IMG/VR virus record: IMGVR_UViG_3300042509_000399
Span: 1-36,340 of that record
Length of the DNA: 36,340 bases
Direction: 5' to 3' (one strand)
From: a virus
Of the stretch, positions 305 to 8,138 are shown one piece after another (positions within the stretch are counted from its first letter, which is position 1; every line of letters starts with the position of its first letter). Position numbers and translations under genes: made by a program. The notes beneath the pieces are model-generated. The model was not told the origin of the DNA, did no database searches, and saw nothing but the letters and a program-made list of their open reading frames with translations.

Positions 305-805
305 TCACACCATCCTTCCACGGGTCTTACCGCGCTGGGCTATGCCGTCTGCACGGGCTGATGCTGACTTTACAGCACCGCCTTTTTTGTACACCTTCTG
401 CGGGTTCATCTCGCGGAGCAGACTACCTGCGCCGCTTTCACCCCTACCACCACGAGCCTGCGCCGTAGGGCGTCGCTCAACTTCGTCAACCGCAGGGTAC
501 TCCGTTACCTTAACACCGCCAACCATCTTTGTGACTGCGCCCTTTTCCGCTTGGTCTCGGGCCGTCTTACGCTCGTCGTACAACGGGTCGGCTTTACGAG
601 CCTTACGTTCCTCTTCCGCTGCAAGCTTGGCTTTACGTTCTGCTACAGCCGCAGCAGTTCGTTGTCGGCCTTCTTCCATTTGTCGGGTAAGATCACGAAT
701 CAAAAACTCTTTATCGAGCTTAGACTCGGTTTCAGCAAAAGCTTTCTCTGAACGAGTTTGCTCCGCCTTATCCGCTGGCGTACGCTTACCCACGATACCC
801 GCCAC
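305..805 (-). CDS. Basic coiled-coil protein with shared C-terminal tag
   Basis: About 166 residues. The middle is charged and helical (KAFAETESKLDKEFLIRDL, then RQMEEGRQRTAAAVAERKAK), and the end carries the tag SASARADGIAQRGKTRGR followed by MV. The start is uncertain: no ATG fits after the upstream stop at 786-788, but a GTG at 805 follows AAGGA and a second GTG lies at 793. Either start slightly overlaps the upstream gene, as elsewhere in this operon. The same tag ends the proteins at 1473-1814 and 1814-2626. Function is unknown; an internal or minor virion protein is plausible from position. Confidence 0.65.
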   Translation of the reverse strand: MAGIVGKRTPADKAEQTRSEKAFAETESKLDKEFLIRDLTRQMEEGRQRTAAAVAERKAKLAAEEERKARKADPLYDERKTARDQAEKGAVTKMVGGVKVTEYPAVDEVERRPTAQARGGRGESGAGSLLREMNPQKVYKKGGAVKSASARADGIAQRGKTRGRMV

Positions 806-1070
806 CTTTTTCCTTGTACTTCTTTGCCAGCAACTGAGCCTTACGTGCTGACCATTGGCCTGCCGCCGTGCCCTGCACCGCTTGCGCCTTGATGCTTTCA
901 AACATCGACTTGCGCATGCCCGGCTTGGTGTAGTTGCCAGCTTCGTTCACGCGAGACTTGACCTTGCCGCCTTCTTTGTACTGCGTAAAGTCGGTGTCAT
1001 CCCGTCGGGCCTTCTTCTTGGCCTTTGGCATCTTCGACGGGTTAATTGCACCCATCCCGCGTGAGGCCAT
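786..1070 (-). CDS. Conserved small phage structural-region protein
   Basis: A 94-residue basic protein starting MASRGMGAINPSKMPK, then GGKVKSRVNEAGNYTKPGMR and a C-terminal QWSARKAQLLAKKYK segment. The phrases VNEAGNYTKPGMRK and GQWSARKAQ.LAK recur, as I recall, in small proteins of marine and freshwater phages, so the reading frame is secure. Two adjacent ATGs at 1073 and 1070 follow the upstream stop (1075-1077); I chose 1070, which gives the usual MASRGMGAI beginning. It shares the GGKVKS element with its neighbours but lacks the full C-terminal tag. Function unknown. Confidence 0.75.
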   Translation of the reverse strand: MASRGMGAINPSKMPKAKKKARRDDTDFTQYKEGGKVKSRVNEAGNYTKPGMRKSMFESIKAQAVQGTAAGQWSARKAQLLAKKYKEKGGGYRG

Positions 1071-1074
1071 CATG

Positions 1075-1473
1075 TCAGCAAGCCTTGCCGCCGTAAGCCA
1101 TCTTGACCATCTTGCCTTTGGTTTTGCCTTTAACAGCAACACCATCACGGCTAGGAGCAGCAGTCTTCACAGCGCCCATCTTCGATGCAGCGACACCGCC
1201 CTTAGCCATCTTCTTCATGCCAGTCTTGAGTTCGCCAACGATGCGCTTCTTTTCAGCCATCAGGTTGCTCTTGCCTTTAGATGTCTTCGCCTTCTCAGCG
1301 TTAACACGGCCCAGTTCTTCCAATTTATTCATACGTGATGTGTTAGCCATACCGCCTCCTGATTTAGTGAACTCACGCCCCACTGATTGAGGCACGCCTA
1401 CCTTTTTGGCGAACTTAGGATTCTCAGCCACAGCCCGCATGAACTTCTCTTGCTTGTTGCTAACCGCAGGCAT
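1075..1473 (-). CDS. Conserved basic protein, MPAVSNKQEKFM family, variant C-terminal tag
   Basis: 132 residues. The N-terminus MPAVSNKQEKFMRAVAENPK with a following P..VGREF pattern resembles short phage proteins of the DUF3008-like type (inference from memory of the pattern). The C-terminus, SRDGVAVKGKTKGKMVKMAYGG, is a diverged version of the DGIAQRGKTRGR tag of its neighbours, preceded by the shared linker ASKMGAVKTA. The ATG at 1473 overlaps the upstream stop as TGATG, indicating translational coupling. Its role in the virion or in assembly is unknown. Confidence 0.75.
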   Translation of the reverse strand: MPAVSNKQEKFMRAVAENPKFAKKVGVPQSVGREFTKSGGGMANTSRMNKLEELGRVNAEKAKTSKGKSNLMAEKKRIVGELKTGMKKMAKGGVAASKMGAVKTAAPSRDGVAVKGKTKGKMVKMAYGGKAC

Positions 1474-1814
1474 CAGACAATCTTCCCGCGAGTCTTACCA
1501 CGTTGAGCGATACCGTCAGCTCGTGCCGACGCTGAACTAACTTTGCCGCCAGCTTTCATGCCGCTTTCCTTGGATTTTTTTAAACTTTCAAGTGCAGCTT
1601 TGCCAGCTGATTCCGCAAAACTCTTTTCTTTTTCTTTTACAGGCGGCTTTGAAGGCGCCATCTTTAAACCAAGCCCAAGTAATGCCTCACGAACGCTTTT
1701 GCGCGGAGCTTCATTCTCCTCGCGCTCTTTCTTTAACTGCTTCTCGTACTCCTCGTATTCTTTCTTTACGAGTGCGTCTCTACGAGCGTTTTCAATTTCG
1801 TTTTCCATAGGCAT
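1473..1814 (-). CDS. Charged coiled-coil protein with shared C-terminal tag
   Basis: 113 residues beginning MPMENEIENARRDALVKKEY. The first half is a predicted charged coiled coil (EEYEKQLKKEREENEAPRK), followed by a Lys/Pro-rich linker and the tag SASARADGIAQRGKTRGK ending in IV. The ATG at 1814 overlaps the stop of the preceding gene (TAATG), and GGGAGG lies about eight bases upstream, so the in-frame TTG six bases earlier is unlikely to be the start. Function unknown; it is one of four neighbouring proteins with this tag or a diverged version. Confidence 0.75.
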   Translation of the reverse strand: MPMENEIENARRDALVKKEYEEYEKQLKKEREENEAPRKSVREALLGLGLKMAPSKPPVKEKEKSFAESAGKAALESLKKSKESGMKAGGKVSSASARADGIAQRGKTRGKIV

Positions 1815-2626
1815 TAGCAAATCCTCCCGCGAGTCTTGCCGCGTTGTGCGATGCCGTCAGCACGCTTGGATGCTGAACCCATAGAAGGTTTAGCTTGCTT
1901 AACTGTACCCATCTTCGATGCTTTGACTGCGCCACCGCGTTTCATGATTGGGTTGCCCATAGCGTCGTACTCAGTATCAGCAACGCCCTTGCGTCTAGCG
2001 GCTTTGGCTTTTTCTTCCGCAGCCATTCTTTCTTTACCTTCCGCAGCGAGGCGCTCACGGAATGATTTACCTGCTTGAGCACGCTCGTTCAAACCTAAGT
2101 TCAGAGATGGGCGCTGATACGGATCAGTCGTAGTGCCTTTTACGCCTTTCGGGTACGGCTTTGATGGGCGCTCGTCGTTTGGTTTAGCTGTACCTGAACT
2201 AATCGGGATGCCAGTCATACCAACCGATGCGGGCTTGTCTTCAGTTTTTGCAGCTGGCTTTGCGCCGCCACCCGACGTGGTTCGCTTCGGTGCAGGCATG
2301 GCACGCTTAGCCCCTACGTCACTACGCATCGCCGCTTCATCAGCACCTTCAGGGACGAGTTCTGGACGACCTTTGGAAGCAGCCATAGCGCGTTTTACTT
2401 CAGCACTTGGCTCTTCGTCGCCTCTGCCCTCGATCATGCTACGAACGTCTACCGGGCCCGAGGAATACCCAGACTTATCTTTAGGGGCGGAACCTTCGCT
2501 TTCACCCTTCTTCTTACGCATCATGTACGCAAGAGCGCCTAGACCTGCTAGTGCAGCCAGACCACCTGCATCAAACTTCTTAGCGCGAGCCGAACCTTTA
2601 ACCGGCTTTGCTTTCGTCTTCTTCAT
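1814..2626 (-). CDS. Large low-complexity basic protein with hydrophobic segment and C-terminal tag
   Basis: 270 residues starting MKKTKAKPVKGSARAKKF. A short hydrophobic stretch (GGLAALAGLGALAYMM) sits near residues 21-36, followed by RKKK. The rest is Pro/Lys/Ala-rich and probably disordered until the end, where ASKMGTVKQAKPSMGSASKR leads into ADGIAQRGKTRGRIC. The start at 2626 is fixed by an AAGGAGA ribosome site six bases upstream; longer in-frame starts lie inside the holin-like gene. A membrane-touching or ejected virion protein is possible, but nothing identifies a function. Confidence 0.75.
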   Translation of the reverse strand: MKKTKAKPVKGSARAKKFDAGGLAALAGLGALAYMMRKKKGESEGSAPKDKSGYSSGPVDVRSMIEGRGDEEPSAEVKRAMAASKGRPELVPEGADEAAMRSDVGAKRAMPAPKRTTSGGGAKPAAKTEDKPASVGMTGIPISSGTAKPNDERPSKPYPKGVKGTTTDPYQRPSLNLGLNERAQAGKSFRERLAAEGKERMAAEEKAKAARRKGVADTEYDAMGNPIMKRGGAVKASKMGTVKQAKPSMGSASKRADGIAQRGKTRGRIC

Positions 2627-2805: not shown

Positions 2806-3060
2806 TCAGCACTTCCACGCACGTAGTGATTTATTGATCCGGCTATTTGGGTCGTTCGCGGTCTTAGCTGAAGTTAGCTTCTTCTTCATACCCGACATAC
2901 GAGCGCAGAATGACTTCTTCCTAGCCCCGCCTTCCGGCTGTGGGGCTTTCAGACCGGGCTTCCCCGGATTGGCTGCGTTATAAGAGGCACGTCCTTTGGC
3001 GTTCAAACCGCCCTTCTCGGACTTACCTTCCTTGCGCTGCCATGCCGGGGTCTTAGCCAT
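2806..3060 (-). CDS. DUF6321-like conserved phage protein
   Basis: 84 residues: MAKTPAWQRKEGKSEKGGLN, then AKGRASYNAANPGKPGLKAP and the block EGGARKKSFCARMSGMKKK, ending SLRAWKC. The sequence SYN..NPGKPGLK.P.PEGG.RKKSFCARMSGM is the signature I associate with DUF6321, a family of unknown function seen in phage structural regions. The ATG at 3060 overlaps the end of the upstream gene by eight bases. It has no strong ribosome site of its own, so coupling is likely. Biochemical role unknown. Confidence 0.8.
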   Translation of the reverse strand: MAKTPAWQRKEGKSEKGGLNAKGRASYNAANPGKPGLKAPQPEGGARKKSFCARMSGMKKKLTSAKTANDPNSRINKSLRAWKC

Positions 3061-3906: not shown

Positions 3907-3924
3907 CAATTGGAGAGCCCCTAC

Positions 3925-4470
3925 ATGCGAATAGTCCCGTTCAAAACCCCTTTGTGGAGCTTTAGCTTAGGAGACATTCAAGACTCGACTATCGATAAAT
4001 GTTATGCGCTAGAACAACAATTGCCAAACATAGAAATGTCGAACAGAGGCGGGTATCAAAGCCCTAATATTTCTTTATCGGCAACATTTCCCGAGTTGTA
4101 CCAAAATGTGTGTTTATTAAAAAGTGTCATTGAAGACGAAGCAGGGTTCAGATTAAATATCACGGACGCGTGGCTAAACATAAACAGAAAACACAGCTAC
4201 AACATCGAACACATACACCCACAGTCTGTATTTAGTGGTGTTATCTATCTAAAAGTTCCGGCAGATTCAGGTGCAGTGATGTTTAAGAACCCCACTCCTG
4301 TAGCACTTTTTCCCGCGCATCATGACTCCCCACTGTTTACACCTTACTGTTCGTACCAACCAAACGTAGGTGCCGTTGTATTCTTCCCCTCATACCTGCC
4401 TCATTTTGTTGAGGCTAACAAAAGCGACGAAGCAAGAATATCAATAGCTTTTAATACAGAGCCGATGTAA
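3925..4470 (+). CDS. Putative 2-oxoglutarate/Fe(II)-dependent oxygenase
   Basis: 181 residues. The core reads WLNINRKHSYNIEHIHPQS (residues 83-101), SGVIYLKVP, SGAVMFKNP, then GAVVFFPSYLPHFVEAN and ARISIAFN. This order matches the phage 2OG-Fe(II) oxygenase family (2OG-FeII_Oxy_5/TIGR02466 type): H96/H98 and H160 are candidate metal ligands and R171 a candidate 2-oxoglutarate contact. Such enzymes hydroxylate unknown protein or small-molecule targets. The gene runs against all surrounding late genes, is visibly AT-richer, and shares a terminator with the capsid gene, so it looks like an acquired cassette. The ATG at 3925 follows GGAG; the in-frame TTG at 3910 is less likely. Confidence 0.8.
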   Translation: MRIVPFKTPLWSFSLGDIQDSTIDKCYALEQQLPNIEMSNRGGYQSPNISLSATFPELYQNVCLLKSVIEDEAGFRLNITDAWLNINRKHSYNIEHIHPQSVFSGVIYLKVPADSGAVMFKNPTPVALFPAHHDSPLFTPYCSYQPNVGAVVFFPSYLPHFVEANKSDEARISIAFNTEPM

Positions 4471-4496: not shown

Positions 4497-5405
4497 TTAG
4501 GCACCCTGCGAACCAAACATGCCCAGCGGGTCAGACCAGCCGAACGAGTAACGCTCACGAGCCTTGTAACGGACGTTGCCAGTGTCGAAGTCACCATCCA
4601 TTCCGGTAGACATCGGCGTACGAACAAAGTGCTTCATGCCGTTAGGAACATCAGTGGTCAGGAACCATGCGTTCGGATCGGTCAGGAAGTGGTTGATCGT
4701 GTAGCCCTCTGGGATCGAACCGTTGTTCTTCAGAGCGTTGATGTCGTTGTCGTTAGTGCCAACACGGAGGCTGGTTTCCAACAGACGAGTAGCAACGAAC
4801 TGGAGCTGTGGCGGAACAACCAGTTTACGAGGCTTAGCTGCGATCAGCAGGCCACGTTCGTCGGTCCAAGCAGCGATCTGGATAACGGCGGCTTCAAGCG
4901 AAGTCTCGTTCAGATCGGCAGGAGTTGCTGGGACGTTAGAGTTAACGCCACCAGAAACGAGTGGGTGGTTAGCCGAGAACAGAGCCTGACCATCACCGCC
5001 CGGATAGGACGATGAGAAGCCATTGTTCAGGACGTTAGCCGCCTTAACCTGCTTGGTGTACGACATAGCACGAGCCAGCCCTTTGGTATAACGAGCCGAC
5101 AGGCTGTCATACAGGTTGTCTTCGATGGCCTCTTCGGTCAGCGAGAAACCCAGAGCGATGGTTTCGTGGTTGTAGCGAGCAGTCCATGCTTCTTGTGCGT
5201 TGTCGTACGCGATTGCAGAACCTTCGTTCTTAACCGGTGCGGCACTGAAGCCAGACAGCTTGGTTTCTTCTTCGAATGAACGCTCGGAAGTCTCGGTTTC
5301 GTAGATTTCCTTGTGCTCTTCGCCGTAGCGAGCGTACTCCATGCCGAACAGGGCGTTCAAGCCGGGGAGCAGCTCTTTCAGTAGTTGTGCGCGTGAAATA
5401 GCCAT
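4497..5405 (-). CDS. Major capsid protein (Mu gpT-like, HK97-fold expected)
   Basis: 302 residues starting MAISRAQLLKELLPGLNALF. Features such as YETETSERSFEEE, LTEEAIEDNLYD, the AKPRKLVVPPQL strand, RVGTNDNDINALKN, LTDPNAWFLTTDVPNGMKHF and the closing RYSFGWSDPLGMFGS match the Mu-like gpT major head subunit family, which adopts the HK97 fold and forms the icosahedral shell. Length is usual for the family. No N-terminal delta domain is obvious, and a separate scaffold gene lies upstream. AAGGAG sits eight bases before the ATG. It is the last gene before the bidirectional terminator. Confidence 0.9.
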   Translation of the reverse strand: MAISRAQLLKELLPGLNALFGMEYARYGEEHKEIYETETSERSFEEETKLSGFSAAPVKNEGSAIAYDNAQEAWTARYNHETIALGFSLTEEAIEDNLYDSLSARYTKGLARAMSYTKQVKAANVLNNGFSSSYPGGDGQALFSANHPLVSGGVNSNVPATPADLNETSLEAAVIQIAAWTDERGLLIAAKPRKLVVPPQLQFVATRLLETSLRVGTNDNDINALKNNGSIPEGYTINHFLTDPNAWFLTTDVPNGMKHFVRTPMSTGMDGDFDTGNVRYKARERYSFGWSDPLGMFGSQGA

Positions 5406-6088: not shown

Positions 6089-6541
6089 TTATTTTCCAGA
6101 GCCAAAGGTCGTTGTAGATTTTCGCTCATTAAAGAGCGGCATCCGGGCGTCACTTTGGCGCATGAAGCTGTTGTCTACAGCCGTCATCTGATCGTTAGCC
6201 TGCTTCGAGTAGTACCCGTTGCGTTGCGTAACGAATTCTTCAGGCGTCTTGCAGAGCATCAGCCCACCAATCACAACAACGTCCTTACTGGCGTTGTCGG
6301 GGTCAGTAATATGCAAATGCAGTTCAGGATGTTCAGAAGCCTTTACGGGCTCCCAGCCTTCACGTCGTTTAGCAGAGAGATTAATCGGATCAGGCGTGTT
6401 CAAAGTAGAGACACGAACCCAATGGAATTTATAGCCGGGCTCAGGATCAGGCACAGGGAGTAACTCTGGGGGTCTCCAAGACTCCTTGCGTTGGGCCTTA
6501 TTGCGCGTGCTGTGTTCACGACTTACACGTGTTTCATCCAT
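6089..6541 (-). CDS. Conserved head-operon protein of unknown function
   Basis: 150 residues starting MDETRVSREHSTRNKAQRKE. Recognisable blocks are SWRPPELLPVPDPEPGYKFH, REGWEPVKASEHPEL, VVVIGGLMLCKTPEE and QRNGYYSKQANDQMTAVDN, ending RKSTTTFGSGK. I recall this arrangement between scaffold and capsid genes in aquatic podo-like phages, but no function is known to me. It overlaps the scaffold stop as TAATG (ATG 6541), so it is translationally coupled. A virion or assembly role is inferred from position only. Confidence 0.75.
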   Translation of the reverse strand: MDETRVSREHSTRNKAQRKESWRPPELLPVPDPEPGYKFHWVRVSTLNTPDPINLSAKRREGWEPVKASEHPELHLHITDPDNASKDVVVIGGLMLCKTPEEFVTQRNGYYSKQANDQMTAVDNSFMRQSDARMPLFNERKSTTTFGSGK

Positions 6542-7533
6542 TACCGATTCTCCTGTTGTTCAGCAACCTTTTTGGCGTAAAGTTCCAGAGGTACACCTAA
6601 ACGCTTAGCAATAGCTATCTGAGAAGCGCTTAACTTTACCTTCTTGGGCGACGTGCTACGAGTAGCCGGAGCTACAACTGTAGTCTGTTTGGCTCGGGGC
6701 GCTGCCTGTTGAGGCTGCTCCTCCGGTTCTTCCTGACTTTCTTGGCTCCCGAAGTAATCGGGGAAACTTCTTTGCATACGAGAATTGATCTTCTCGTAGT
6801 ATTCATCTGTCCCAACATAGCCCTGACCATACTGTTTGACTAGAGCGTTGTGCACGCCAAGGGCGGTAGCACTCATAATCGTGGTCTCGGGAGATGACTC
6901 ATCTCCGTACCAAGGGTTGTCCTCCAGCCACTGATTTAGCTTTTGGTCAGCCTTGGGAGCTGCCGAGTTGGGTGGACTATACTCGGGTTTTTCCTGTACT
7001 TCAATAGGTCTAAGGTTTTCAGCCTTGTCAAGCTTCAGGGTTGCCTGTGCGATCTTAGCTTGCGCTTCCGCCACAGCATCGACATCCCCGTTCTCATAGG
7101 CATCCTTGTACTGCTTCTTAGCCTGTTCAAGTTCCAGTTGAGCGGTTGACTTACCCTGCTCAATAAAAATCTTAGAGCCTTCAGAGAGTTGCTTCTGGAG
7201 AGTAAGGTTCTCTTCATAGAGCCGCTTGGCGAACTCTTCAGCAGCCTGACGTTCCCGTAGGGCTTCTTCTTTGGCTCGTCGCTCATCGTGATAGCCTTTT
7301 GTAAACTTTTTAAGGCGCTTCTGGACTTTTTCGTCATACGAAGCCAGCTCATCCTCAGTTACCTCCTCCGGTGGCTCAGCCATAGGCTTGCGACCACGAT
7401 CTTGTGGTGGAGTGTCGTCTACAACCTCAATATTGAACTCCTCGTCCGAGGAAGCCTGCTTGGGAGCAGCTTTAGCCTTCTCTTCTTTCTCGTCGGGAAA
7501 CTCAAACTCAGCTAATTCCATGTTGTTTTTCAT
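6541..7533 (-). CDS. Scaffolding protein
   Basis: 330 residues, highly charged and Gln/Glu/Lys-rich. The N-terminus is acidic (ELAEFEFPDEKEEKAKAAP). The centre is a long coiled coil (KRLKKFTKGYHDERRAKEEA through KIAQATLKLDKAENL). A W-rich patch (QWLEDNPWYG) precedes a disordered Gln/Pro region and a basic helical end (VKLSASQIAIAKRLGVPLEL). Position between portal and capsid, coiled coil and basic C-terminal helices are typical of phage scaffolds, which direct procapsid assembly through a C-terminal coat-binding domain. That C-terminus resembles the 55-residue early protein at 29690-29857. Confidence 0.8.
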   Translation of the reverse strand: MKNNMELAEFEFPDEKEEKAKAAPKQASSDEEFNIEVVDDTPPQDRGRKPMAEPPEEVTEDELASYDEKVQKRLKKFTKGYHDERRAKEEALRERQAAEEFAKRLYEENLTLQKQLSEGSKIFIEQGKSTAQLELEQAKKQYKDAYENGDVDAVAEAQAKIAQATLKLDKAENLRPIEVQEKPEYSPPNSAAPKADQKLNQWLEDNPWYGDESSPETTIMSATALGVHNALVKQYGQGYVGTDEYYEKINSRMQRSFPDYFGSQESQEEPEEQPQQAAPRAKQTTVVAPATRSTSPKKVKLSASQIAIAKRLGVPLELYAKKVAEQQENR

Positions 7534-7543
7534 TTAACTCTCC

Positions 7544-7948
7544 TTAAGCACGCGAAATACCACGCGGGTCTTGGACGACAGCCTCTACCGAGTCATCGTT
7601 GATAAGCCGGAACTCCCGCCCATGAATCTTCAGTCGGGTTCCAGTGTTGGGGCGGGCGAGGATAAAGTCACCCTTCTTGCACCAAGGACCGGTCGGAAAC
7701 TTCTTTTCATCTTTATAACAGTCAGGGCCAAGGGCAACCACGAAGAACACCGTGGACAACACCTCTTCATACCGCCGGGTCTCATCAGCCTTAATTAGGC
7801 CGCTCTCATAGGTCTCCTCAGACTCAGGTAGCGCCACAAGAACGTGATACCCAGCAGGGTCCGGCAGTTGCTTTGCTTTCTCTTCAGCCGACTTGTCCAA
7901 TACAGCAGACAGGTCTACAGCTTGTGAAAGATCAACAGCACTATTCAT
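7544..7948 (-). CDS. GroES-like co-chaperonin
   Basis: 134 residues. After a charged N-terminus come AGYHVLVALPESEETYESGL, VVALGPDCYKDEKKFPTG, KKGDFILARPNTGTRLKIHG and REFRLINDDSVEAVVQDP. This reproduces the Cpn10 order: opening strand, a mobile-loop-like ETYESGLIKADE segment, the LGP turn, KKGD and the closing strand. Phage versions (for example T4 gp31) replace GroES to help GroEL fold the capsid protein. It is longer than bacterial GroES (about 97 residues), mostly at the N-terminus. The ATG at 7948 has GGAG upstream and overlaps the preceding gene by eight bases. Confidence 0.8.
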   Translation of the reverse strand: MNSAVDLSQAVDLSAVLDKSAEEKAKQLPDPAGYHVLVALPESEETYESGLIKADETRRYEEVLSTVFFVVALGPDCYKDEKKFPTGPWCKKGDFILARPNTGTRLKIHGREFRLINDDSVEAVVQDPRGISRA

Positions 7949-8138
7949 CAGATTTCTCCAGTCGTTGCACGAGGTCATCTAGGATTTCCGTAGCCATTGC
8001 CAGACCCCGGATCACTCCGGCTACGTGTTTGTACTCTTCCAAACTGACTGCTTTGCCAGTTGCAAGGAACTCAACTCTGCTCTGCTGCTCTTCGGTAAAC
8101 TTAGTTTTTAAGTACCCAAGGACGGTTCCATCGTTCAT
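7941..8138 (-). CDS. Small acidic head-operon protein
   Basis: 65 residues: MNDGTVLGYLKTKFTEEQQS, then an all-helical remainder (AVSLEEYKHVAGVIRGLAMA and ILDDLVQRLEKSDE). Such small helical proteins directly after portal genes are common, and I cannot assign a function. GAAGGAG precedes the ATG, which overlaps the portal stop as ATGA, and the end overlaps the co-chaperonin start. The coupling suggests stoichiometric expression with the portal and chaperonin. Confidence 0.7.
   Translation of the reverse strand: MNDGTVLGYLKTKFTEEQQSRVEFLATGKAVSLEEYKHVAGVIRGLAMATEILDDLVQRLEKSDE

Follow-up and report, generated by a model that had tools for sequence, protein, structure and literature searches.

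Downstream of the major capsid protein (MCP) gene in the window analyzed here, a 36,340-nucleotide viral sequence (IMG/VR record IMGVR_UViG_3300042509_000399), several small late proteins with unrelated N-terminal regions end in nearly the same residues, raising the question of what function such a shared tail could serve. All genes of the tagged cluster lie on the minus strand (Table 1), and the tails of the three proteins encoded at 305, 1473 and 1814 follow the consensus S-A-S-x-R-A-D-G-I-A-Q-R-G-K-T-R-G-[KR]-x-x-stop. Pairwise identity over the final 20 residues is 18, 17 and 17 positions, whereas the top agreement in 20,000 composition-preserving shuffles of the tails was 9 positions, bearing out the near identity described in an earlier note on this DNA. 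That note had also described four adjacent proteins with a C-terminal tag, which holds in part: a six-frame search of the window found four copies only (E = 2.5e-8, 4.6e-8 and 1.5e-7, with 0.008 for the diverged copy), but an untagged gene intervenes between the 305 and 1075 genes, and the copy in the 1075 protein is followed by about a dozen residues, making that motif internal rather than terminal. The four window bodies without their tails are mutually dissimilar (best BLASTP E 0.64), confirming that the N-terminal regions are unrelated, and the linker ASKMG.VK does occur in both the 1075 protein and the 1814 protein, besides being frequent in relatives.

Table 1. Features of the tagged gene cluster and neighboring head genes in the window.
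Feature	Position	Strand	Remarks
Tagged late protein, 162 aa	305..793	-	Probable GTG start at 793; C-terminus KKGGAVKSASARADGIAQRGKTRGRMV
Tag copy 1 (SASARADGIAQRGKTRGRMV)	308..367	-	
Putative ribosome-binding site GGAAGG in tag codons G-R	314..319	-	10 nt 5′ of the ATG (303) that starts the next gene
Untagged gene	786..1073	-	Between the 305 and 1075 genes; different basic C-terminal module (phrog_17747) after GG
1075 protein	1075..1473	-	SxKQxxFM three-helix N-terminal domain, ASKMGAVK linker and diverged internal tag copy
Diverged tag copy (..PSRDGVAVKGKTKGK)	1111..1161	-	
Tagged late protein, 113 aa	1473..1814	-	C-terminus KAGGKVSSASARADGIAQRGKTRGKIV
Tag copy 2	1476..1535	-	
Putative ribosome-binding site GGGAAG (codons G-K)	1482..1487	-	8 nt 5′ of the start codon (ATG, overlapping the stop codon) of the 1075-1473 gene
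Tagged late protein, 270 aa	1814..2626	-	Mostly disordered by prediction; C-terminus KRGGAVKASKMGTVKQAKPSMGSASKRADGIAQRGKTRGRIC
Tag copy 3	1817..1876	-	
Putative ribosome-binding site GGGAGG (codons G-R)	1823..1828	-	8 nt 5′ of the start codon (ATG, overlapping the stop codon) of the 1473-1814 gene
DUF6321 protein, untagged in the window	2806..3060	-	With or without tag in relatives
Major capsid protein (MCP), PF25209 match	4497..5405	-	Tag follows the lineage of this gene
Probable scaffolding protein	6541..7533	-	Assigned from position and composition; C-terminus other than the tag

The tag extends well beyond the window. With a tag-bearing protein as query, more than 500 relatives were confirmed among the IMG/VR matches listed; the matches listed for the tag pattern alone are part of a larger set, and the loci analyzed are best-match samples rather than a census. 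Exactly five residues follow GKT in 420 copies and two in 43 (mostly a shortened form ending in GKTRA), with the remaining copies off the standard register belonging mostly to the internal class of the 1075 family; the offset of five is also kept in the 69 copies that have no ATG of a next gene at the stop codon. An HMM of the tails, which is less tied to the search pattern, gave the same core with few departures. By BLASTP, 333 tagged bodies from IMG/VR loci fall into approximately 134 families, a count that depends on the BLASTP thresholds and low-complexity filtering and that may exceed the true number because disordered, biased sequences hide distant homology. The bodies are mostly small, low-complexity proteins, and no more than a handful of 149 representative tagged proteins had a match among the models of Pfam, PHROGs and NCBIfam, these being the DUF6496, DUF6321 and SxKQxxFM families with their PHROGs; two of these families bear the name ‘virion structural protein’ in PHROGs, and the tag itself matched no family in the three collections. 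The SxKQxxFM N-terminus of the 1075 protein occurs in jumbo phages too and is confidently predicted as a three-helix piece, with a disordered tag region, and the prediction for the 1814 protein is mostly disordered and of low confidence. For the tag, neither a fold nor a helix is predicted (pLDDT only about 45-52). The usual C-terminus of DUF6321 proteins is RAWKC, and in some relatives the same protein runs on into the tag, indicating that the tag has been joined to a protein that also exists without it. The number of body families, the fixed stop register and the DUF6321 proteins with and without the tag make the modular C-terminal signal proposed in the earlier note well supported.

Other classifications of the tag and its bodies were considered and rejected. 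Nearly all copies meet the spelling GxxxxGK[ST] of a P-loop (Walker A) NTPase motif through G-I-A-Q-R-G-K-T, but the tag lies at the extreme C-terminus, has no predicted fold and is accompanied by no Pfam NTPase match in the 149 members. Membrane or pore proteins are likewise not indicated, a hydrophobic stretch being present in approximately 9% of body families versus 6% in shuffles.

The cluster contains further short basic C-terminal modules, DUF6321 and phrog_17747, that resemble the tag in being joined to differing N-terminal parts; unlike the tag, they are longer, form separate families and occur in cyanophages and pelagiphages, with no tag in the genomes tested. DUF6321 had matches in 540 records of cultured phages, predominantly cyanophages and pelagiphages, as well as at the C-terminus of much larger PHROG families. 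At one related locus (L297:13530-13802, plus strand), a single protein combines the N-terminal part of the 786 product with the KWIQ..KKPGALR module of the window gene at 130-303, joined at GG, showing that other basic modules are likewise swapped at glycine pairs.

Comparison of codons points to the level at which the tag is conserved. Between window copies, third positions agree at 5-12 of 20 sites while residues agree at 17-18 of 20, and across 113 loci third-position identity is 45% within a locus versus 42% between loci. Because third positions are nearly as different within loci as between them, the tag is kept as a protein and not by recent copying, which rules out a DNA repeat or gene conversion and points to tags that are old and maintained by selection on the peptide. 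Co-evolution of the tags within a genome was also rejected: apart from the variable position -17, greater similarity inside a locus than across loci is clear at just the two final residues, which gives no sign of a genome-specific reader.

Approximately 45 copies stop at GKTRA without the final residues, so the very end of the tag is dispensable. This bears on the idea that the tail marks its proteins for processing or degradation, either as a prohead protease site or as a C-terminal degron limiting free copies. The fixed C-terminal register would be in keeping with a protease that reads the terminus, as would the final two residues, which are mostly hydrophobic or Cys; however, the shortened ends are tolerated, confinement to the head region would be unexpected for a degron, and a search of 24-26 tagged genomes, in which positive controls were matched, revealed no prohead protease homologue of family S78 or S49, the T4-specific S77 family being outside the search. 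The lack of an S78 or S49 protease makes cleavage of the tag unlikely, weakening the proteolytic processing suggested in the earlier note, and a processing or degradation signal of either kind is judged highly improbable.

The last codons of the tag appear to have a second role, as ribosome-binding site for the gene that follows. The last Gly codon is mostly GGA or GGG and the last Lys/Arg codon mostly AAG or AGG, creating GGAAGG-like stretches approximately 8 nt before the next ATG that overlaps the stop codon; all three tags of the window carry such a Shine-Dalgarno-like stretch, a point absent from the earlier note. AGG hardly occurs at the remaining arginines of the tag, and its use falls from 29% to 2% when the stop codon has no ATG. 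Internal tag copies have GGC as the Gly codon instead, and in shortened copies the purine-rich stretch is shifted further upstream, as is the start codon. Translation is probably driven from these putative sites, and each tagged gene end would thereby be a ready-made coupling unit. All of these codon patterns would also suit a gene-junction cassette, in which RNA carrying the Shine-Dalgarno sequence and the stop/start overlap has spread by junction shuffling and the peptide is of little weight. The peptide is nevertheless constant despite free synonymous variation, remains so in the 69 copies without an overlapping next start, and includes a D-G-I-A-x-R part that lies outside the ribosome-binding site, and a cassette of this kind is quite unlikely. 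Since copies that lack the overlap have an unchanged peptide, the ribosome-binding site is an added function of the tag and does not account for the peptide.

The 26 contigs of 46-70 kb contain 74 tag copies, of which 73 are located between the MCP and tail-adaptor genes, within a stretch of about 4.2 kb. The MCPs of all 26 are 83-95% identical to that of the window, and no fewer than 12 of them were retrieved solely through the tag or a tagged protein. When loci were instead fetched by MCP alone and counted only with at least 4 kb downstream, the tag was present in 31 of 36 with MCP identity of at least 80% to that of the window and in 2 of 57 below 80% (Fisher p 4e-17, with kinship between loci uncorrected); a few more distant genomes have single diverged copies. 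Terminase and SNF2 helicase do not track the tag as the MCP does: terminase identity in tagged genomes is 51-90%, some at 51-56% being as distant as untagged cultured phages (37-58%), and the SNF2 helicase of the window is absent from 11 of the 26 tagged genomes. Common descent of the head module can account for the MCP linkage without physical matching, so the linkage is supportive rather than proof.

While the tag is constant, the tagged bodies are the fastest-changing genes. Across 31 loci (window included) with MCPs 87-95% identical, 42 of 46 tagged families are confined to one locus, a count in which one large merged cluster was left unsplit, whereas the adaptor and other head genes recur. 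The three tagged bodies of the window are retained in 0, 0 and 1 of 33 close relatives, versus 33 of 33 for DUF6321. A constant label with changing contents would be expected of cargo and less of structural parts. The place of the tagged genes, between MCP/cement and adaptor, would also suit assembly or tail-joining factors, such as additional scaffolds or neck proteins, that act between head and adaptor and could be missing from the mature virion; however, such extreme turnover of bodies among genomes with near-identical MCPs is unsuited to a structural role and the MCP gene has a separate scaffold-like gene upstream of it, leaving this explanation very unlikely.

The head module of the window has the gene order described for the Pam1-like podoviruses Pag-Yong1 and DSL-LC04, terminase-portal-GroES-(scaffold)-MCP-cement-adaptor (PMC9382816), and a GroES-like co-chaperonin gene (7544-7978, minus strand) lies between portal and scaffold as in those phages. 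Their MCPs are, however, 65-73% identical to that of the window, and they are among eight cultured phages in which no tag was found by a search that detects it easily where present; tblastn with the tag alone or with the 1814 protein also gave no match in cultured phages, and PDB searches with the MCP, the adaptor and the 1814 family gave none. Several features of the surrounding genes were observed in passing. A 2OG-Fe(II) oxygenase-like gene (3910-4470, plus strand; phrog_81, E 2e-40) is located on the opposite strand between the cement-like and MCP genes of the window. The adaptor contains an in-frame insertion in 11 tagged genomes (G002, G007, G010-G013, G017, G018, G021, G023 and G024; ~308-318 aa versus ~240), and on the contig of L024 (G006) the terminase match at 39860-42202 (minus strand) is split by ~880 nt within an open frame of 793 aa, probably by an intein.

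The earlier note had named occurrence of the tag in unrelated cellular contexts as an observation that would speak against a common address. The single match among GTDB genomes lies on a phage contig (L276, CAIMTR010000124.1) that encodes the same MCP (84%) and four tags, so a cellular origin was rejected; the contig was binned with a gammaproteobacterial MAG, a weak indication of the host. No relevant text containing the tag letters was found in the literature, nor any on DUF6321, with subscription papers and preprints outside the search.

The charge of the tail makes nucleic-acid binding, also raised in the earlier note, the main rival to a head-related role. A basic disordered tail would take small late proteins to RNA or to phage DNA, whether packaged or unpackaged, with no capsid recognition. 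Mean net charge is +7 in the last 32 residues, the bodies carry +3.8 per 100 residues, the untagged small neighbor proteins are basic too, and the lack of a predicted fold would agree with such a module. The D-G-x-A-x-x-G-K-T core is, however, far stricter than a generic basic tail requires, the lysine of GKT is almost never R or H although the search pattern permitted both, and the tie to one MCP lineage is unexpected for plain DNA binding; nucleic-acid binding is therefore possible but on balance unlikely.

The explanation that we favor, and to which we give nearly an even chance, is that the tail is a C-terminal head-loading (address) peptide. The basic flexible tail would bind a conserved site on the inner capsid face, or another conserved part of the head, during head assembly and thereby draw into the head a rapidly changing assortment of small proteins, to be ejected with the DNA or to act in assembly, while the last G-[KR] codons would provide the Shine-Dalgarno-like sequence for the next, overlapping gene. 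Head packing was one of the roles suggested in the earlier note, and it fits the data because the tag is confined between MCP and adaptor and is tied to one MCP lineage; that the tagged proteins are present in virions and delivered into the host is what we infer from these sequence patterns.

Encapsulin cargo-loading peptides (CLPs) are short C-terminal peptides on unrelated proteins encoded beside an HK97-fold shell gene (PMC7355545). The tag resembles them as a short conserved terminal peptide on unrelated proteins, encoded beside a shell gene that here matches PF25209, but CLPs have ~10 residues, one of them sitting in a hydrophobic luminal pocket, whereas the tag has ~20 residues, is basic and occurs on several proteins per phage. 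The encapsulin-type CLP may serve as a functional analogy for the tag. The capsid targeting signal of phage T4 is N-terminal and is cut by the prohead protease; unlike it, the window signal is C-terminal and has no S78 or S49 prohead protease found alongside it. Capsid targeting sequences bring accessory, exchangeable proteins, including anti-restriction proteins, into the head in the case of T4 internal protein IPIII and P1 DarB (PMC9024508). In the P22 scaffolding protein gp8, basic C-terminal residues bind acidic coat residues on the inner procapsid face (PMC9965877), and the proposed mode of the tag would be similar in its use of a basic C-terminal tail; gp8 is, however, one dedicated scaffold with a helix-loop-helix, whereas the tag is found on many unrelated proteins, has no predicted helix and coexists with a separate scaffold-like gene. 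As the T4-defining features are absent and shell binding is putative, the tag is not assigned to the encapsulin, T4 or P22 type. Address peptides for shells are already known; what is new here is a putative phage-borne C-terminal address peptide on many unrelated proteins, coupled to a putative ribosome-binding site.

A broader scenario is conceivable, if doubtful, in which a widespread podovirus-like uncultured lineage uses one portable, capsid-matched C-terminal peptide that loads a rapidly changing repertoire of small proteins for host delivery, while the same DNA gives the following gene its ribosome-binding site, such that new cargo would slot into the late operon already tagged and translationally coupled. 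Whatever the function of the tag, its sequence would be a clear instance of two signals in one, encoding a conserved peptide and, judging from codon statistics, providing the next gene with its ribosome-binding site. If the head-loading role is correct, the tag would flag proteins carried into the host by a large uncultured phage group, most of them without known relatives, and would offer a ready list of candidate early-acting or counter-defense proteins; like the encapsulin peptides, it would also be a compact, portable means of directing proteins of choice into a phage head.
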